From IMG/VR virus record IMGVR_UViG_3300021475_000012, positions 1-62,037 of that record: a DNA stretch of 62,037 nucleotides, one strand, 5' to 3'. A program made the translations under genes and the position numbers. The DNA comes from a virus. Positions 6,361-62,037 of the stretch are shown piece by piece. How positions within the stretch are numbered: the first letter of the stretch is position 1; each line of letters begins with the position of its first letter. A model generated the notes under the pieces. The model was not told the DNA's origin and searched no databases. It saw nothing but the letters and a program-made list of their open reading frames with translations.

Positions 6361-7659
6361 ATGACCTTGAACTACCACCGATGCCACAGCACAGACTGCG
6401 AGGGCAAGCATCCCGCGAAGACATTTACGAGCGAAACGGAAGAACATGTGAAGGGCTGGAAGCGATGCCACTGCCCCATCGTCGCCAGCGGCACTCTCAA
6501 TCGCGTGGCCAAGCGCAAGGCCACCAAGCAAACCGAATGGGCCGCAGCTGCGGAGGTGATGGTTCCCTACATCGTGGCCAAATCCTGGGTTCTTCCAGAA
6601 GACGAGCCGCCCACTCCACCGGCCCCCAAGGCACCCGTACCACCTCCCCAGACTCCCGCGCCCGCCTCTGATAAAGTCACCGTCAAAGCAGCAACTGAGG
6701 AGTACATCAAGGAACACCAAAAAGCGGAATCGGCACCGACTACGCTCGATGGACACCGGCAACGAATGGCATCGATCTGCAAGTTCGCGGAAGAAACCGG
6801 CTGGCTCTACCTGACCGATTGGGACGCCAAAATCGCCAACCAATACCTGAATCAATTTCGAGTCGCCCCCATCACGGCACGCAAGTACCGAAAGATGGTG
6901 AAGGCATTTTTCGCGTGGTGCATCGCCAAGGAATGGATCGCAACCAACCCCGGCAAGGCCGTTGCCGTGATCAACAATCGCGCCACCAGCCTGCTGAAAG
7001 TGGGGAAGGAAAGGCAACCTCTTGTCGATGCGGAACTGGAACGCATGTATCAGGGATGCCTGCGATACGACGCCCTGTTCCCGGTGCGCAAATGGAGAGG
7101 AGAGGATCTGGCGGATTTCATCGCTCTCTCCGTTCACACCGGCCTGCGAATTTCGGATGTCGCCACCTTCAATATCAACCGGTTGAAAGGCGCGGATGAG
7201 GTCCGCATCCGCACGCTGAAGAGAGGCAAGATGGTCTACACCGTTGTGCCGCCCTGGTTGGCAGAACGCATCCGCATTCGGGCAGAGAAGTTTGGCCCAC
7301 TGATTTTCGGTGCTCATCGTTCCACCAAACTTGACGTCATCACCCACTGCTGGCGGATGCGGTTGAACGAACTCTGGAAGCAATGCGGCTCCTGGGAGAT
7401 CAAGCCTACGCCGCACCGCTTCCGGCATACCTTCTGTCGCATTCTGCTGGAAAGCGGCAGATCCTACGCCGATGTCGCGGACCTGACCGGCGACACAGAA
7501 GCCGTAATCCGGGAACACTACGCATCCTGGGTACCGGGACGGCAAGAACGGGTCTCTAAACTGCTGCGCGAATCCTTCGCGGATGTGCCGGTCCCGGCAT
7601 ACGCCAGATCAAACAAGCCTGCCAGAGTGATCGAGATGGTCAAAGTTAAACGCGGATAG
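6361..7659 (+). CDS. int: Phage integrase, tyrosine recombinase
   Basis: The 432-residue protein has an unusual Cys/His N-terminus (C8, C13, H17 and C36-H-C38), a Pro-rich linker near 83-102, a core-binding domain at about 105-215, and a catalytic domain. Catalytic residues are visible: R263 (TGLRISDV), Lys near 287-290, H352xxR355 (HRFRHTF), and Tyr387 (REHYASW). The usual GH box is GD (D378). It should integrate the phage at attB using the attP just upstream. It lies alone on the plus strand among minus-strand genes, with an excisionase-like gene converging on its 3' end. The N-terminal pattern resembles integrases I associate with Acidobacteriota, a weak host clue. Confidence 0.92.
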   Translation: MTLNYHRCHSTDCEGKHPAKTFTSETEEHVKGWKRCHCPIVASGTLNRVAKRKATKQTEWAAAAEVMVPYIVAKSWVLPEDEPPTPPAPKAPVPPPQTPAPASDKVTVKAATEEYIKEHQKAESAPTTLDGHRQRMASICKFAEETGWLYLTDWDAKIANQYLNQFRVAPITARKYRKMVKAFFAWCIAKEWIATNPGKAVAVINNRATSLLKVGKERQPLVDAELERMYQGCLRYDALFPVRKWRGEDLADFIALSVHTGLRISDVATFNINRLKGADEVRIRTLKRGKMVYTVVPPWLAERIRIRAEKFGPLIFGAHRSTKLDVITHCWRMRLNELWKQCGSWEIKPTPHRFRHTFCRILLESGRSYADVADLTGDTEAVIREHYASWVPGRQERVSKLLRESFADVPVPAYARSNKPARVIEMVKVKRG

Positions 7660-19286: not shown

Positions 19287-19504
19287 TTTGTTATCAGCAC
19301 TATGGGAGTGGTCATAAGAAAAGCTTATGGGCCATAAGGGGAGCTTATTGCATGGGTTCGGGGCTATCTCTTTCCCTTTGTTTCCAACCACTTAACATTC
19401 TCACTCCCCAGTCAACGTTAACTGGAATATTCCTCACTACTATATGTAACGTTTTCCCCGATGTAACGTCTTATCTATTCCGCCGTTACTTGACGCGGAA
19501 ATAG

Positions 19505-19525
19505 CAAGGTGACTTACTCACCTTG
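19505..19525 (+). promoter_or_regulatory. Hairpin before the first start-associated sequence
   Basis: CAAGGTGA, loop CTTAC, TCACCTTG: 8-bp perfect arms. It lies eleven bases before the CTAAGGACAC motif of the 19554 gene. Confidence 0.6.
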
Positions 19526-19553
19526 ACTCCATGACCTAAGGACACTTACCGCA

Positions 19554-20330
19554 ATGAAACGCATTGCCTCAGCTGCTAAGACTCGTCTACCGAAACTCTC
19601 CCAGGGCTATATTCTGTATGAGAACGATTCCATCGTAGTCATCGCCACGGGTATCACCCGCAAATCCACCAACAAAAAGACGGGCGCAATGATCCAGATC
19701 TACATCCTGGTACGGCATACGCACCCCGTCGAAGCCGTTAAGTTAGGGCTGGATCGCGCTATCTGCATTGACTGTATCCACATGGGTACCGAAGGGTTTA
19801 AAGAGCGCAGTTGCTATGTGGACATGAAAGGGCCCATAGCCGTATGGGAAGCGTACCAGCGCGGATCGTACCCCCACATCACAGAGGAACTGTACGCCCG
19901 CGTGTTCACTAACAGGGCCGTCCGTTTCGGCACCTACGGGGAGCCATGCTTGATTCCCCTGGGTATCATTCGCCGCATTGTGCGCGTCTGCAATCGCCAT
20001 AGCGGCTATACGCACCAGTGGGCTAACGGAATTGACGGCGAGTACCTGCAGTACCTCATGGCATCCTGTGACCGTCCCGGTGACGCGGACAAGGCGCATG
20101 CCCTGGGATTCCGTACGTTCCGCGTGGAACCTACTCACGGTGTATCGCCTCTCCCAGGTGAGATCATTTGCCCGTCAGAGTCGCGTGGGCATAACTGCGT
20201 CGACTGTAAGCTCTGTAACGGCGCTGTATCAGGCGCGAAGTCGGTCATGATCACGGTACATGGCGCGGGCGCAAGGCATCTCCAAACCAAGCTAGATCGC
20301 CTCATTCAAATCGAGGGATTCGCCGCCTAA
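19554..20330 (+). CDS. Conserved phage protein (DUF7227-like)
   Basis: A 258-residue protein. GYILYENDSIVVIATGITRK, a ridged N-terminal beta region, then CIDCIHMG, RSCYVDMKGPIAVWEAYQRG, and CPSESRGHNCVDCKLCNG near the C-terminus give several Cys pairs. I recall this as a widespread phage protein, often labelled DUF7227, without a known function. It is the first gene of the early block and is preceded by the hairpin and start-associated sequence. Confidence 0.72.
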   Translation: MKRIASAAKTRLPKLSQGYILYENDSIVVIATGITRKSTNKKTGAMIQIYILVRHTHPVEAVKLGLDRAICIDCIHMGTEGFKERSCYVDMKGPIAVWEAYQRGSYPHITEELYARVFTNRAVRFGTYGEPCLIPLGIIRRIVRVCNRHSGYTHQWANGIDGEYLQYLMASCDRPGDADKAHALGFRTFRVEPTHGVSPLPGEIICPSESRGHNCVDCKLCNGAVSGAKSVMITVHGAGARHLQTKLDRLIQIEGFAA

Positions 20331-20334
20331 CTCC

Positions 20335-20357
20335 TGGGGGAGTAACTTACTCCCCCA
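20335..20357 (+). promoter_or_regulatory. Strong intercistronic hairpin
   Basis: TGGGGGAGTAA and TTACTCCCCCA are perfect 11-bp arms around one base (a folded stem of about 8 bp). There is no following T-run, so it is probably not a simple terminator. It precedes the second start-associated sequence by 14 bp. Confidence 0.7.
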
Positions 20358-20393
20358 TAACTTACCTAACTTATCGACTAAGGACACATACCA

Positions 20394-20570
20394 ATGAAAC
20401 TGACAAGAGAAGAAACCAAGAAACGCGCCGCCCTGATTGCTTCCGTTATTCCAGGGTCAACAGTAGTAGCGAACGCCTGGAATATCACGGTTGTTACCCG
20501 TGGCGGCAAACACGTTGCCATATGGGTTGGGCGTAAAGATGGATTCACCAAAGTGGAGTGGGCACGCTAA
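20394..20570 (+). CDS. Small basic protein, 58 residues
   Basis: MKLTREETKKRAALIASVIP, then VVTRGGKHVAIWVGRKDGF. It has a start-associated sequence ten bases upstream, and its stop overlaps the next ATG (TAATG). Small, basic, beta-rich C-terminus. No family recognised. Typical of early host-takeover or anti-defence proteins only by size and location. Confidence 0.65.
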   Translation: MKLTREETKKRAALIASVIPGSTVVANAWNITVVTRGGKHVAIWVGRKDGFTKVEWAR

Positions 20571-20801: not shown

Positions 20802-20843
20802 ATGCACACATTGGATCTCACCCAATACGACGTCACGGTGTGA
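20802..20843 (+). CDS. 13-residue ORF behind a start-associated sequence
   Basis: MHTLDLTQYDVTV has a full start-associated sequence (20781-20796) at normal distance. Directly after its stop comes a long hairpin (20844-20897) and then another start-associated sequence. It could be a leader peptide controlling the genes behind it, or a remnant of a deleted gene. Confidence 0.45.
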   Translation: MHTLDLTQYDVTV

Positions 20844-20897
20844 CTAATAGCCCACTAGGAGCCCACCTATACGGAGGGCTCCCGTGGGGGCTGTTAG
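20844..20897 (+). promoter_or_regulatory. Long ~54-nt hairpin before the 20920 gene
   Basis: The outer stem CTAATAGCCC (20844-20853) pairs with GGGCTGTTAG (20888-20897) with one G-U. The inner stem is GGAGCCC (20858-20864) with GGGCTCC (20876-20882). It ends six bases before TATCGAAAGGACAC. The 24161-24216 hairpin has the same build and the same inner stem sequence in inverted order. Confidence 0.75.
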
Positions 20898-20919
20898 CCC
20901 TCATATCGAAAGGACACTT

Positions 20920-21144
20920 ATGACATACGTAATCAGACTGATCAACGACAACTCGATGCAAACGCTGTACAGCGGCAATTCCGCTAAAGCCGCCCAGAAG
21001 GCCGTGGATATGGCACGCGGCATCCTGATCATCTCCGGCGGCACTGCTGGCATCTATGGGCACGTTTGGGGCAAGACCGCCCTGTTGTGGGAAGTGAACG
21101 ACGGCCAAGCCACATGCCCCGAAGGGACCAGCCCGCTGGCATGA
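20920..21144 (+). CDS. Hypothetical protein, 74 residues
   Basis: MTYVIRLINDNSMQTLYSGN ... AVDMARGILIISGGTAGIYG. Small alpha/beta protein. The first strand resembles that of the 24236 gene (MTYNVTITDSG), so the two may be distant paralogues. Its start is set by the start-associated sequence, ignoring an upstream in-frame start. Confidence 0.6.
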   Translation: MTYVIRLINDNSMQTLYSGNSAKAAQKAVDMARGILIISGGTAGIYGHVWGKTALLWEVNDGQATCPEGTSPLA

Positions 21145-24164: not shown

Positions 24165-24216
24165 GGGCACCCTGGATCGGGCTCCCATGCCGGAGCCCCT
24201 TCCAGGCTATCCTTAG
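24161..24216 (+). promoter_or_regulatory. Long ~56-nt hairpin before the 24236 gene
   Basis: Three stacked stems: CTAAGG/CCTTAG (24161-24166 with 24211-24216), CCTGG/CCAGG (24171-24175 with 24202-24206), and GGGCTCC/GGAGCCC (24179-24185 with 24192-24198). It ends four bases before TATCGAAAGGACAC, matching the design at 20844-20897. Confidence 0.78.
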
Positions 24217-24235
24217 CCTATATCGAAAGGACACT

Positions 24236-24499
24236 ATGACATACAACGTAACGATCACTGATAGCGGTGCCCGCGTGTCGAGCACCATCGAAGCCGCCGA
24301 TATCGAAGCCGCTTGCGAGTTGATGGAGAAGTCCATGAAGGAAGCGGAGCAAGTCACCGCCGGGAATCCTGGTTGTGAGCCGCGCACCGAATGGATTTGC
24401 TTTGTCCTCGCTGGTTACTACGCTGAGTGCAGTCTGCGCTCCGAAGGCGAACAGGACGCCGCTTGCTGGACTAAGGTCACCATCGAGGAGGTCCGGTAA
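24236..24499 (+). CDS. Hypothetical protein, 87 residues
   Basis: MTYNVTITDSGARVSSTIEA, then helical (DIEAACELMEKSMKEAEQ) and a Trp/Cys-containing end. Start-associated sequence one base upstream of the ATG. Stop overlaps the next start. Possibly a distant paralogue of the 20920 protein. Confidence 0.62.
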   Translation: MTYNVTITDSGARVSSTIEAADIEAACELMEKSMKEAEQVTAGNPGCEPRTEWICFVLAGYYAECSLRSEGEQDAACWTKVTIEEVR

Positions 24500-25272: not shown

Positions 25273-25479
25273 ATGGCCGGTTCGAAGACGCGCAGTATCC
25301 GCATTGTCGCCGCTGTAGCGTGTCCTGAGTGTGGTGCCCTGGCGGGGGAGCCCTGCAAGAACCGGGAGCCCCATCGCGCCAACCTGGGGCCGGAAGACCG
25401 CCGGGGGGTGCCTATCCGGCCCCACAACCTGCGGCGGATGGCCTGGATCGAATGGAAGCAGCAGAACGGAATCATCTAA
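25273..25479 (+). CDS. Small zinc-finger protein
   Basis: The 68-residue protein has VACPECGALAGEPCKN followed by PHRANL, matching the short CPxCGAxxGxPC zinc motif found in many phage and actinobacterial proteins. It starts MAGSK like its upstream neighbour. The ATG at 25273 is preferred over an upstream in-frame start inside the previous gene. Confidence 0.66.
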   Translation: MAGSKTRSIRIVAAVACPECGALAGEPCKNREPHRANLGPEDRRGVPIRPHNLRRMAWIEWKQQNGII

Positions 25480-25502: not shown

Positions 25503-26555
25503 ATGACTAAACAAACCAGCACTACCCAGAACCAGCTGGTCCCCATGCCGGGACTGCCCAAGAGCGTAAGCGCAGCCGATGCCCTGGTGGAGATGGCCTT
25601 AGCTACTTGCACCAGCGACAACACCCGCCGCGTTTACCGGCTGCGGCTCCGCTACTATCTCGCTTCCCAATTACCCTTCAACCGGGAAGGGGTCGCTGCG
25701 CACTTGGCGCAGCTGCGCCAGGAGGGAAAGGGCGAGTGCGTCACCATGCTGGCCATGGCGGCGATCAAGAAACTCGCCAAGGAAGCTGAGATCCGCCACC
25801 TGATCTCCTATGACGAGTACCGCCAGATCACCGACTTATCCGGCGGCAAGGTGCAACGCCAGAAGACGGGCATGTGGCTCACCGTTAGCGAAGTCGAAGA
25901 CCTCCTGGCCCTGCCTGACCGCACGACTTACTACGGCAAGCGCGATGCCGCCATCCTCTGCGCCCTGGTGGGCACCGGCCTGCGCCGGGATGAGCTACTT
26001 CACCTGAACTGGGACCAGTACCAGTCCCGCGAGGGCCGGATGTGCCTTGTGAACGTGAAGGGCAAGGGAGGGAAGCTGCGCACTGTGCCCGTGCCCCTCT
26101 GGGCCCAGCCGGATATCGACGTCTGGCAAGTCACCATCCAGACCCAGGAGCCGCCCCCGGCTCCCGGCGCTCTGGAAGCCGCCAATCTCATCAGGCGGGA
26201 GCGGCACCCCTTGAACTCCAAACGCTTCTGCGGGCGCTTGGGCTCGACGCGCCTCGCGGAGATCGTCATCGGCTACGGCCAGCGGATCGGCATCGACCTC
26301 CGGCCCCATGACCTCAGGCGCACCCTGGCGAAGATGATGCACCGTGCCGGTGCCGGGATCGAGCAGATTCAGTTCACCCTGGGGCACCAGCACATGCAAA
26401 CCACCACCATCTACCTGGGCTCCCTGCTCGAAATCGCCCCCGGCCAAGCAGGCGTGGACAAGGTCCAGATCGCCATCAACCGCAAGCTGCGCACCAAGGT
26501 AGTCGAGATGGACCGGCTGGACTCCCACCTCGCCGCCGCCGGGGGGAAGGCATGA
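25503..26555 (+). CDS. Second tyrosine recombinase (XerC/D-like)
   Basis: A 350-residue protein. N-terminal SAM-like core-binding domain (~25-110), then the catalytic domain with R161 (GTGLRRDEL), a Lys in VKGKGGKLRTVPV, H269xxR272 (PHDLRRTL), H295 (LGHQHMQTT), and Tyr304 (TIYLG). All six expected catalytic residues are present, and the helix-rich, linker-free form is closer to Xer proteins than to the 6361 integrase. It lies in the early operon, far from the attP repeats. Roles could be multimer resolution, DNA inversion, or an alternative integration site. Confidence 0.88.
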   Translation: MTKQTSTTQNQLVPMPGLPKSVSAADALVEMALATCTSDNTRRVYRLRLRYYLASQLPFNREGVAAHLAQLRQEGKGECVTMLAMAAIKKLAKEAEIRHLISYDEYRQITDLSGGKVQRQKTGMWLTVSEVEDLLALPDRTTYYGKRDAAILCALVGTGLRRDELLHLNWDQYQSREGRMCLVNVKGKGGKLRTVPVPLWAQPDIDVWQVTIQTQEPPPAPGALEAANLIRRERHPLNSKRFCGRLGSTRLAEIVIGYGQRIGIDLRPHDLRRTLAKMMHRAGAGIEQIQFTLGHQHMQTTTIYLGSLLEIAPGQAGVDKVQIAINRKLRTKVVEMDRLDSHLAAAGGKA

Positions 26556-26875
26556 CCTACTGGGATGCCCCCGGATTGAGCCAGGAAGCCCCAGGAGCTT
26601 CTCCCAGGGCCCCATTGGCCGGTAAGACACCCCCCAGGCGTTGCCAGGGCTGGAACGTCTTCAGCCGCGACTCCCTGCGCCCCCGCATGGCCTGCCGGTG
26701 CTGGGCCCGTCCCGGCTCCCCCTTTTGCCGCTACCACCAGCCCCCCGCGAGTGCGCAAGAGCCCCTCCGGGAGAGCGAGTACCCGCAAAGTGAGGCGGCT
26801 CCGCAGGAGCCGCCGGTACGCGGGGACGAGCGGGTGAGGGGGAGAGAAGCGGAAGGAGAACAGGGATGCCGGTGA
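26552..26875 (+). CDS. Cys-containing hypothetical protein with a Glu/Arg-rich tail
   Basis: This 107-residue protein has RCQGWNVFSRDSLRPRMACR, then CWARPGSPFCRYHQ, Cys and His spaced like the small zinc motif of phage proteins (C..C......C..H). A long low-complexity tail follows. Starts at an ATGA overlap with the recombinase. Confidence 0.5.
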   Translation: MTYWDAPGLSQEAPGASPRAPLAGKTPPRRCQGWNVFSRDSLRPRMACRCWARPGSPFCRYHQPPASAQEPLRESEYPQSEAAPQEPPVRGDERVRGREAEGEQGCR

Positions 26876-27039: not shown

Positions 27040-27054
27040 CCTCGCAAACCCTAT

Positions 27055-27094
27055 GGGGGCAGAGCCAGTGATGCGGCTCCTGCCCCCTTTTTTT
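27055..27094 (+). terminator. Intrinsic terminator of the early operon
   Basis: GGGGGCAGAGCC, an 8-nt loop, GGCTCCTGCCCCC (one bulged base), then seven T. A textbook rho-independent terminator 16 bp after the last early gene. Confidence 0.93.
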
Positions 27095-27482
27095 GTATCT
27101 ACCAACACAACTCTGGAAACCCGCTTTTCCCTTCATTTCTCTCTAGTGAAAACCTATACATATCATGGGGGTAGTCAGCTACCCTACTTTGCGGGTATCC
27201 GGCCACATAGCCCTATTTCCCGCTATCGCCGGAGCCCCAATAACAACGGGGTCCGCGAGGACATAAGTAGGCCGTGAGCGGCGGCTCGAAAGAGCCGCCC
27301 GAAAGGACTACCTTATGTCTTCTTTCTTTATTTAGCCTCTCTTTTTAACAGGAAATTTCGGTCTTTATTCTGGTTTCTTACAATGGTATATGGCTGGCGC
27401 TATTAATGTACTAGCGGAATGCACTTGTTATTAATGGTTCCCTCTATTGACAAACTTATTCCCATGAAATAGCGTTACTGCC
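27095..27482 (+). ncRNA. Gene-free structured region (possible ncRNA or cis-regulatory RNA)
   Basis: Downstream of the terminator, 388 bp with no gene hold nested structures. There is a GGGTAG/CTACCC hairpin (27169-27184). GCGGG/CCCGC (27191, 27219) and CCGGC/GCCGG (27199, 27228) cross and could form a pseudoknot. A stem GGA-CCCC/GGGGTCC follows (27231-27254). Last is an outer stem GACATAAG/CTTATGTC (27260, 27312) enclosing GGCGGCTC-GAAA-GAGCCGCC (27280-27299). The outer stem buries an ATG (27315) behind a weak start-associated sequence, opening only a 6-codon ORF. After 27336 it is AT-rich promoter sequence. No known RNA family was recognised. Confidence 0.5.
27447..27475 (+). promoter_or_regulatory. 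Promoter with consensus -35 before the RHH regulator
   Basis: TTGACA (27447-27452), a 17-bp spacer, and a weak -10 TAGCGT (27470-27475). The predicted transcript would start at or beside the ATG at 27483, i.e. leaderless, as for some phage repressor genes. Confidence 0.45.
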
Positions 27483-30655: not shown

Positions 30656-30817
30656 ATGAAACCGGGGCCGGTCATGCTGCTCTGTCCTCAATGCCAGCGC
30701 TACTTCCAGGTGCCGGTGGGCGAGGACGAGGACGGCTATTTCTGGCCCTCCCTTCCTCCGCACGAGCCCTGCAGCCAAAAACATGGTTTAGAGTCTAACT
30801 GCGATTCCAGCGAATAA
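30656..30817 (+). CDS. Small zinc-binding protein, 53 residues
   Basis: MKPGPVMLLCPQCQRYFQVP ... PHEPCSQKHG gives CxxC and CxxxH for one zinc. One base separates it from the upstream stop. Its last codons overlap the operator-like palindrome at 30788. Confidence 0.58.
   Translation: MKPGPVMLLCPQCQRYFQVPVGEDEDGYFWPSLPPHEPCSQKHGLESNCDSSE
30788..30798. promoter_or_regulatory. TTAGAGTCTAA palindrome followed by ACTGCGATT
   Basis: Third perfect copy of the 7893/19219 site, inside the 3' end of the 53-residue gene and 270 bp before the recombination operon. Confidence 0.55.
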
Positions 30818-31070
30818 GCCCAACCGGTGGGCGCTCCCCGCGCCGCCCCACAAGCGGCGGGGGTCCGCTCCCCCGAAAGCCTGGCCCTAATTCAGACTCC
30901 GCGGTCTGAATCGGCCGGCACCGGACCAAGTCAACTTACCCCACTTACTCTATGTGCCAAATCATCCGCATAAGTCGACTTATGCAGAACGGTTGAATTT
31001 CAACTAGCACGGGCGTACACTGGCCTTTCGCGAGTTATTCTGATTTCCAGAAAGAAGAGAGGACAAAGTT
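30818..31070. promoter_or_regulatory. Control region of the recombination operon
   Basis: 253 bp without a gene. A GC stem (30836-30863) lacks a T-run. ATTCAGAC/GTCTGAAT arms span 30890-30911. GCATAAGTCGACTTATGC (30968-30985) is a perfect 18-bp palindrome. GTTGAATTTCAAC (30992-31004) is a 13-bp palindrome overlapping a -35-like TTGAAT (30993-30998), paired at 17 bp with TACACT (31016-31021). The last palindrome lies exactly where a repressor would block polymerase. Confidence 0.62.
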
Positions 31071-60802: not shown

Positions 60803-62037
60803 CTAGCTCTCCTTAGTAACTACTCGCGGGGGAGCCTGGGCCGAAGCCTTGCGCCCAGCGGCGTTGATATCGCCGGAAAGGCCCATCTGTTGCTGGTAGA
60901 GGATGCGCTCCGGGATGGTTCGCACGTTGTCCGGGAGGACGCCGATGTTGGGGATGCCCAGGACTTCCCAGAGGGTGAAGATGTCCATCCAACCGGCGCG
61001 GGTGAGTTGCAGGTAGATCATCTTCTGCTCCACCTGGGCTGAGTTCAGCCAGGAACCGGGAGTGATCTTGAAGACGAAGCGCCGGAGGAATTCCTTGGCA
61101 CGGTCCCAGCGCGGCATAGGGCCGCGCAGGATGGCTTCGGGGCTGATCGAGCCGTCTGCCCCGTAATCGGCATCGTGAACGAAATCGGGGATCATGGAGC
61201 CGGGGTCGAAGTCGAAGTCGTCCTGGGTGACGCCACCGGGGCCTAGCTCTACAACCCGCATGGGCAGGGTGTAGAACTGCGAGAAGTTATATGCCAATTG
61301 CATGGCTAACTCGCGGGTGAAGGCTTCCAGGATGCGGGAACGCATGCGGATCGCCGGGGTCATCTGGTGGATGATGGCTTCGACAGAGTCGTTAGAAGGA
61401 AGCTGCTTCAGCCCCATCAGCTGCTCGATGGCGCTAACTCCGCTTAGCTCGTCCATTTCAGTCTGAATCCACTTGATGTGCTCCCAGATCGATTGGTCGA
61501 GAGGGGGCGGGGTGATGATTTGGATTCCCTTACCGGCGAGGGGGTTTTGATAGATCTTATAGCCCGCTCTCCTGGTGTCGAAGCTATCGAACTGGGAGCG
61601 CGAGACGCTGTTCTTATCATGAATCGACCCCGGCTGGGCCACCTGCGCCGCATGGTCGTCCACCACCCGGAGGAGACGGTTGAGCGATGTCTGCAGCCGC
61701 AGGAGGTCCCAGACCGGAGCCTTCCCTAGCCATGTCCAGGGGTAGGGATTCAAGGTCAGTTTCAGGATCGGGAAGTGGCCATGCCAGTAGTAACTGGGGC
61801 CGTCATAAAGCATATGCTGGCCTACCCAGGAAATGGTGCGGCGGTTGGGATAGAGCTTGTCGCCCAGTTCCACTTTGTAGGACCAGTTGTTGACCGGCTT
61901 GCCGTCTTCCCAGGTGCCCATCTGGATGGGCTTGCCGGTGTAGTCGTCGCCCATGTCCTTGCGGGTGTTCCGCCGGTCGTCCTTCAGGTAGCAGGTATAG
62001 AGGGTGACGGAGGGAATACGGGGCGGTTGGGTGGCGG
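60803..62037 (-). CDS. Portal protein, C-terminal part (gene starts at the left end)
   Basis: This frame enters from the right edge and ends at 60803. From 61898 it continues the left-edge portal without a break. Motifs: DLLRLQTSLNRLLRVVDDHA, LSGVSAIEQLMGLKQLPSND, and RAGWMDIFTLWEVLGIPNIG near the C-terminus, matching large P22-type portals. Bases 62025-62037 (three differences from 127-139) change three residues and probably reflect an assembly edge or strain variation. Confidence 0.9.
   Translation of the reverse strand, partial: ATQPPRIPSVTLYTCYLKDDRRNTRKDMGDDYTGKPIQMGTWEDGKPVNNWSYKVELGDKLYPNRRTISWVGQHMLYDGPSYYWHGHFPILKLTLNPYPWTWLGKAPVWDLLRLQTSLNRLLRVVDDHAAQVAQPGSIHDKNSVSRSQFDSFDTRRAGYKIYQNPLAGKGIQIITPPPLDQSIWEHIKWIQTEMDELSGVSAIEQLMGLKQLPSNDSVEAIIHQMTPAIRMRSRILEAFTRELAMQLAYNFSQFYTLPMRVVELGPGGVTQDDFDFDPGSMIPDFVHDADYGADGSISPEAILRGPMPRWDRAKEFLRRFVFKITPGSWLNSAQVEQKMIYLQLTRAGWMDIFTLWEVLGIPNIGVLPDNVRTIPERILYQQQMGLSGDINAAGRKASAQAPPRVVTKES
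61899..62024. repeat. Direct terminal repeat, right copy
   Basis: Identical to 1-126. Marks the circular overlap of the contig; the remaining 13 bases diverge from the left copy at three positions. Confidence 0.93.

Follow-up and report, generated by a model that had tools for sequence, protein, structure and literature searches.

A nested hairpin behind an integrase terminator resembles an outlying copy of a phage hairpin and ribosome-site module

The early mRNA of phage T7 carries ribonuclease III sites, which are intercistronic hairpins of ~20 bp with an internal loop, located just upstream of a ribosome site. In the mycobacteriophages of cluster K, the SAS/ESAS repeats comprise many copies of one exceptionally conserved ribosome-site sequence just upstream of the starts of non-structural genes; in a subset, the wide gap before the site also contains an inverted repeat that directly adjoins it. 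The class is defined by a 13-bp consensus (GGGATAGGAGCCC, with two or fewer mismatches) in multiple copies directly before starts, and by a 17-bp imperfect inverted repeat having its own consensus. Pope et al. reported no support for RNA pairing in the ESAS arms of cluster K and favored DNA-binding sites, and a later paper placed putative promoters in ESAS; protein-binding DNA and promoters are the functions proposed for these repeats (PMC3203893, PMC11373665). SAS/ESAS-like motifs with the consensus GGGAAAGGACCCC occur also in Microbacterium phages of cluster EF (PMC7302621), with an intergenic motif immediately upstream of the site that is centred on GTAGAG and is not described as a hairpin. 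The phage described here and one relative carry repeats that are laid out much like these start-associated repeats of actinobacteriophages but differ from them in sequence.

We analyzed the whole of a 62,037-base record of a soil phage (IMG/VR IMGVR_UViG_3300021475_000012; hereafter, the window). Its first 126 bases recur exactly at 61899-62024, so that the repeat lies near both ends of the record, which suggests that the genome is circular, near-complete and about 61.9 kb long. The window codes for a large terminase, a portal protein, a major head protein, a ParB-like protein and two tyrosine integrases (6361-7659 and 25503-26555). Two Tunturiibacter phages have a head protein with 27% identity to that of the window, a weak hint that the host may belong to the Acidobacteriota. 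The structured stretch is located between the terminator of the integrase operon and a regulator operon (27483 onward), whose genes near the stretch are ribbon-helix-helix-like (by eye) and HTH-like. A search for close relatives of the flanking genes recovered a single record, G003, which is syntenic with the window, has its genes in the same order, keeps both integrases and carries an exact 127-base terminal repeat. The second integrase of the window probably starts at 25503 (AGAGGACTTATG) and not at 25329, in agreement with the start at 61318 in G003. The elements of the stretch are as follows.

27055-27087, + strand: intrinsic terminator hairpin (12-13 bp), followed by a run of seven T, the element extending to 27094; ends the integrase operon
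27169-27184, + strand: 6-bp hairpin GGGTAG-TCAG-CTACCC
27191-27233, + strand: hairpin TCCGGC/GCCGGA stacked with ATAGC/GCTAT (predicted fold)
27234-27252, + strand: hairpin CCCC/GGGG with a loop of 9-10 nt
27257-27322, + strand: nested hairpin with outer stem GAGGACATAAGTAG/CTACCTTATGTCTTC, inner stem and internal loop
27300-27308, + strand: ribosome site CGAAAGGAC, the sixth + strand copy of a start-associated site of the early genes
27315-27335, + strand: six-codon ORF, ATG TCT TCT TTC TTT ATT TAG (MSSFFI*), with its start codon inside the outer stem

All the elements named in the original prediction were recovered from the sequence at the positions given, among them the perfect terminator at the beginning of the stretch, the 6-bp hairpin, and the nested element with its outer 8-bp stem (GACATAAG/CTTATGTC at 27260-27267/27312-27319) and inner stem (GGCGGCTC-GAAA-GAGCCGCC at 27280-27299). 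The ribosome site is embedded in this hairpin and is at the same time a recurrent sequence of early-gene starts, and the ATG at 27315 within the outer stem indeed opens only six codons. The internal loop is GUGA/GAAA, flanked by a few pairs. The fold of the nested hairpin has a z of -6.9 against dinucleotide shuffles, none of which (0/200) matched it, and the segment 27201-27320 has the second lowest fold z among 774 + strand windows. The stretch is probably free of genes, as first described. It is spanned by an ORF of 74 codons (27053-27277), whose codon-usage z is 1.3, compared with values of mostly 4-6 for the clear genes of this phage. A hidden protein gene at these positions was rejected on account of this weak codon signal.

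On balance, we favor reading the nested element as an outlier among the copies of a phage module in which a hairpin is followed by a start-associated ribosome site. This would make it a modest variation on a feature already known from phages, and not a new type of RNA switch. The clue to this reading is the ribosome site. In the 62-kb phage there are six copies of the 9-mer CGAAAGGAC, each on the + strand; 0.48 would be expected for the two strands together, and a count of six was reached in 0/100 shuffles. Five of the copies start genes of the early operon between 20.9 and 24.2 kb (20920, 21244, 23750, 24027 and 24236), and five variants of the site start genes or ORFs at 19554, 20394, 20802, 21531 and 23115. 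These ten sites, counted without the one at 27300, have the consensus (A/T)ATCGAAAGGACAC, whose GAAAGGA part is able to base-pair with the 16S rRNA 3' end. An ATG always lies 4-13 nt downstream of the GGA. Six starts of the corresponding G003 operon are preceded by ATC(A/G)AAAGGACACC or by a sequence close to it, and the consensus is common to the ten window sites and the six G003 sites, all in this + strand operon. A family-wide ribosome motif was not seen in the more distant relatives G005-G007 and Tunturi_1, and the exact pattern ATATCGAAAGGACACN(1-2)ATG was not present in other viral contigs. Upstream of the early operon, AACGTTA/TAACGT-type motifs are repeated at 19380-19500 and are possible operators.

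Sites with a wide preceding gap, and hence room for a hairpin, have one upstream; sites that directly follow coding sequence have no unusual fold. At all five window sites judged roomy (19554, 20394, 20920, 24236 and 27315), the upstream folds have z of -2.5 to -4.1 (5/5), a grouping that was made by inspection after the folds had been seen, the automatic gap estimate being distorted by chance ORFs. The fold upstream of G003 site 57328 has a z of -3.3. The comparable modules in the window are listed below.

19505-19556, + strand: palindromic hairpin where the early operon begins, followed by AAGGACACTTACCGCA-ATG
20335-20396, + strand: perfect palindromic hairpin, then AAGGACACATACCA-ATG
20841-20925, + strand: stop codon of a 13-codon ORF, then a long hairpin and ATATCGAAAGGACACTT before the ATG of a 74-codon gene
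24165-24238, + strand: hairpin and ATATCGAAAGGACACT before the ATG of an 87-codon gene; recovered with the G003-built model

The 13-codon ORF (20802-20843; MHTLDLTQYDVTV*) has its own start-associated site and is followed by the long hairpin and the next gene. It is possibly a leader peptide, and it means that short frames behind the site are not unique to 27315.

The window hairpins upstream of this subset of sites have no single arm sequence in common. In several of the copies, the pairing is kept through compensatory changes. Between the aligned G003 hairpins that precede 57328 and 57879, none of the 12 pairs is broken and there are two double compensatory changes (GGGCATT/AATGCCC to GGGCACT/AGTGCCC, and CCGGT/ACCGG to CCGAT/ATCGG); a shuffle control reached this in 126/500 cases, and with two sequences only it is a weak control. 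A model built from these two copies has a match in the window at 24173-24241, with an E of 6.4e-6, and recovers a third copy in G003, with an E of 0.0035; the E-values are rough, and part of the scores is due to the shared ribosome site. The stems of the copies found by the model are GGGCTCC/GGAGCCC and GGGCTCT/AGAGCCC, with positions that are altered yet still paired. Pairing kept in this way in some of the hairpins would make an RNA-level role of such repeats testable.

When compared with the described systems, the module resembles the SAS/ESAS of actinobacteriophages in how it would work. Like the cluster K repeats, it has multiple copies directly before starts (ten window sites and 27300, with six in G003) and, at a subset of them, an inverted repeat in the wide gap directly ahead. 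However, we do not class it as a member, because the defining sequences differ: the window consensus does not fall within two mismatches of the 13-bp consensus of cluster K, and the hairpins do not conform to the 17-bp inverted repeat. The departures in the cluster K arms do not support RNA pairing, whereas several window and G003 copies keep theirs. With the cluster EF motifs the window phage has in common the core GAAAGGAC and an intergenic motif immediately upstream of the site, a likeness at the level of the motif. An interrupted intercistronic hairpin before a ribosome site is also the arrangement of the T7 ribonuclease III sites, the likeness here being one of predicted fold.

We propose that the module is an intercistronic leader in the early operons of the window phage and G003, in which the gap behind a gene contains a strong hairpin, followed by the conserved site ATCGAAAGGACAC and then the start codon. 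In the mRNA, it would most likely serve as a translation-initiation leader. The hairpin, which could be a site of ribonuclease III-type processing, may insulate or stabilize the end of the downstream mRNA and may present the ribosome site in its internal loop. The copy at 27257-27335 would be a minor and possibly relic member of the module, its transcription, processing, translation and function being inferred. As this copy drives only the six-codon ORF, it may be the start of a leader peptide or a relic whose gene has been lost.

The nested hairpin has the core of the module, CGAAAGGAC with an ATG at a spacing of 6 past the GGA, and in other respects it is an outlier. The site is located 3 kb beyond the last regular one, behind a strong terminator, and fronts six codons only. 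Outside the 9-mer core, its flanks fit the consensus poorly; with a weight matrix made from the other ten sites (15-nt consensus, leave-one-out), it ranks 57th of 124,046 positions. The G003-built hairpin model (GGGCNNN...NNNGCCC), run with filters off, gave no match at 27257-27322 and so lends no support to homology of the nested hairpin with the G003 hairpins. At the syntenic gap, G003 has a terminator of like form at the same place, although the local alignment score of the two terminators is not above shuffles, and then ~180 bp of unstructured, unalignable DNA, whose homology to the post-terminator DNA of the window is likewise not above shuffles. The structure may, as judged from this one relative, have been gained in the window lineage or lost in that of G003.

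A second part of the original prediction was a possible pseudoknot. Both crossing 5-bp stems are present (GCGGG/CCCGC at 27191-27195/27219-27223 and CCGGC/GCCGG at 27199-27203/27228-27232). Such stems, however, arise in 98/100 shuffles of 27096-27258 and in 46/1000 shuffles of the exact 56 nt, and in the minimum-energy fold CCGGC/GCCGG stacks with ATAGC/GCTAT in a competing nested helix that excludes the crossing stem. The pseudoknot was therefore rejected.

The stretch had further been thought to be a translation switch or a stand-alone ncRNA. What remains of this proposal is a ribosome site in a real hairpin; a dedicated switch or stand-alone ncRNA is possible but unsupported, given the chance-level pseudoknot, the absence of structure in G003, the failure to find a consensus promoter and the start occlusion predicted at ordinary genes too. 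We consider unlikely a stand-alone small RNA of ~160 nt that would start near 27165 and comprise three or four hairpins, with its end at the nested hairpin and UUCUUUCUUUAUUU. It would account for the low fold z of the whole 27055-27335 stretch (-5.8 over 281 nt) and of 27160-27245 alone (-3.6), and is consistent with the lack of a clear coding signal and with the U-rich tail (TTCTTTCTTTATTT) that follows the nested stem, the base of which is A/T-rich. An intrinsic-terminator scan did not list this stem, and the same scan missed the obvious terminator at 27055 too. Against the small RNA, a scan for sigma-70-type promoters found none, the structure is missing in G003, Rfam yielded no match, and the consensus ribosome site with its ATG would have to be coincidental. 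The Rfam search gave no gathering-level match, the best sub-threshold one being the terminator, in agreement with the earlier view that no known riboswitch or ribozyme is present. No tRNA or tmRNA was found, nor did searches for the same DNA in phages and plasmids, or for the exact pattern of elements in collections of viruses and genomes, return a match. Hammerhead, twister and HDV-like ribozyme cores, compared by eye, did not fit.

To the same degree, we doubt a cis-acting switch or attenuator of the regulator operon, in which ribosome entry at the AUG at 27315 would open the nested hairpin and alter read-through. The ribosome site in the internal loop, the start codon in the outer stem, the six-codon ORF and the U-rich run after the stem would suit such a device, but the analysis turned up no mutually exclusive second fold, no conserved core of the ligand type and no comparative support for it. 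The start codon at 27315 is predicted to be fully paired, and the same occlusion is predicted at genes 19554 and 31071. The predicted openness of site 27300 (0.64) falls among those of the other sites (0.43-0.84, except 31071 at 0.17). Gene 31071 has a GAGGACAAAG-type ribosome site, and two strong consecutive hairpins (30790-30925, z -3.4) lie in the gap ahead of the gene.

A phage-specific translation regulon in soil phages, with a host possibly among the Acidobacteriota, appears quite improbable to us; here a phage factor would recognize the hairpins and the invariant ribosome site, and 27257-27335 would be a regulatory leader-peptide switch for the regulator, the parB-like and other early genes. 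Very unlikely is a role of the hairpins at the DNA level, such as that of dyads in an operator or attachment site: the position between the integrase and the regulator genes, the DNA palindromes that the compensatory changes preserve as well, and the proposals for the analogous ESAS repeats speak for it, but every site is on the same strand, within an operon, and has a start codon directly after it and a stop codon before it.

The palindromic hairpin GGCGGCT(N6-7)AGCCGCC is present in near-identical form at 26794-26814 and 27280-27299, less than 500 bp apart, and nowhere else in the window or in the relatives searched; 49/50 shuffles of the window contained none. The first of the two copies lies inside ORF 26552-26875.
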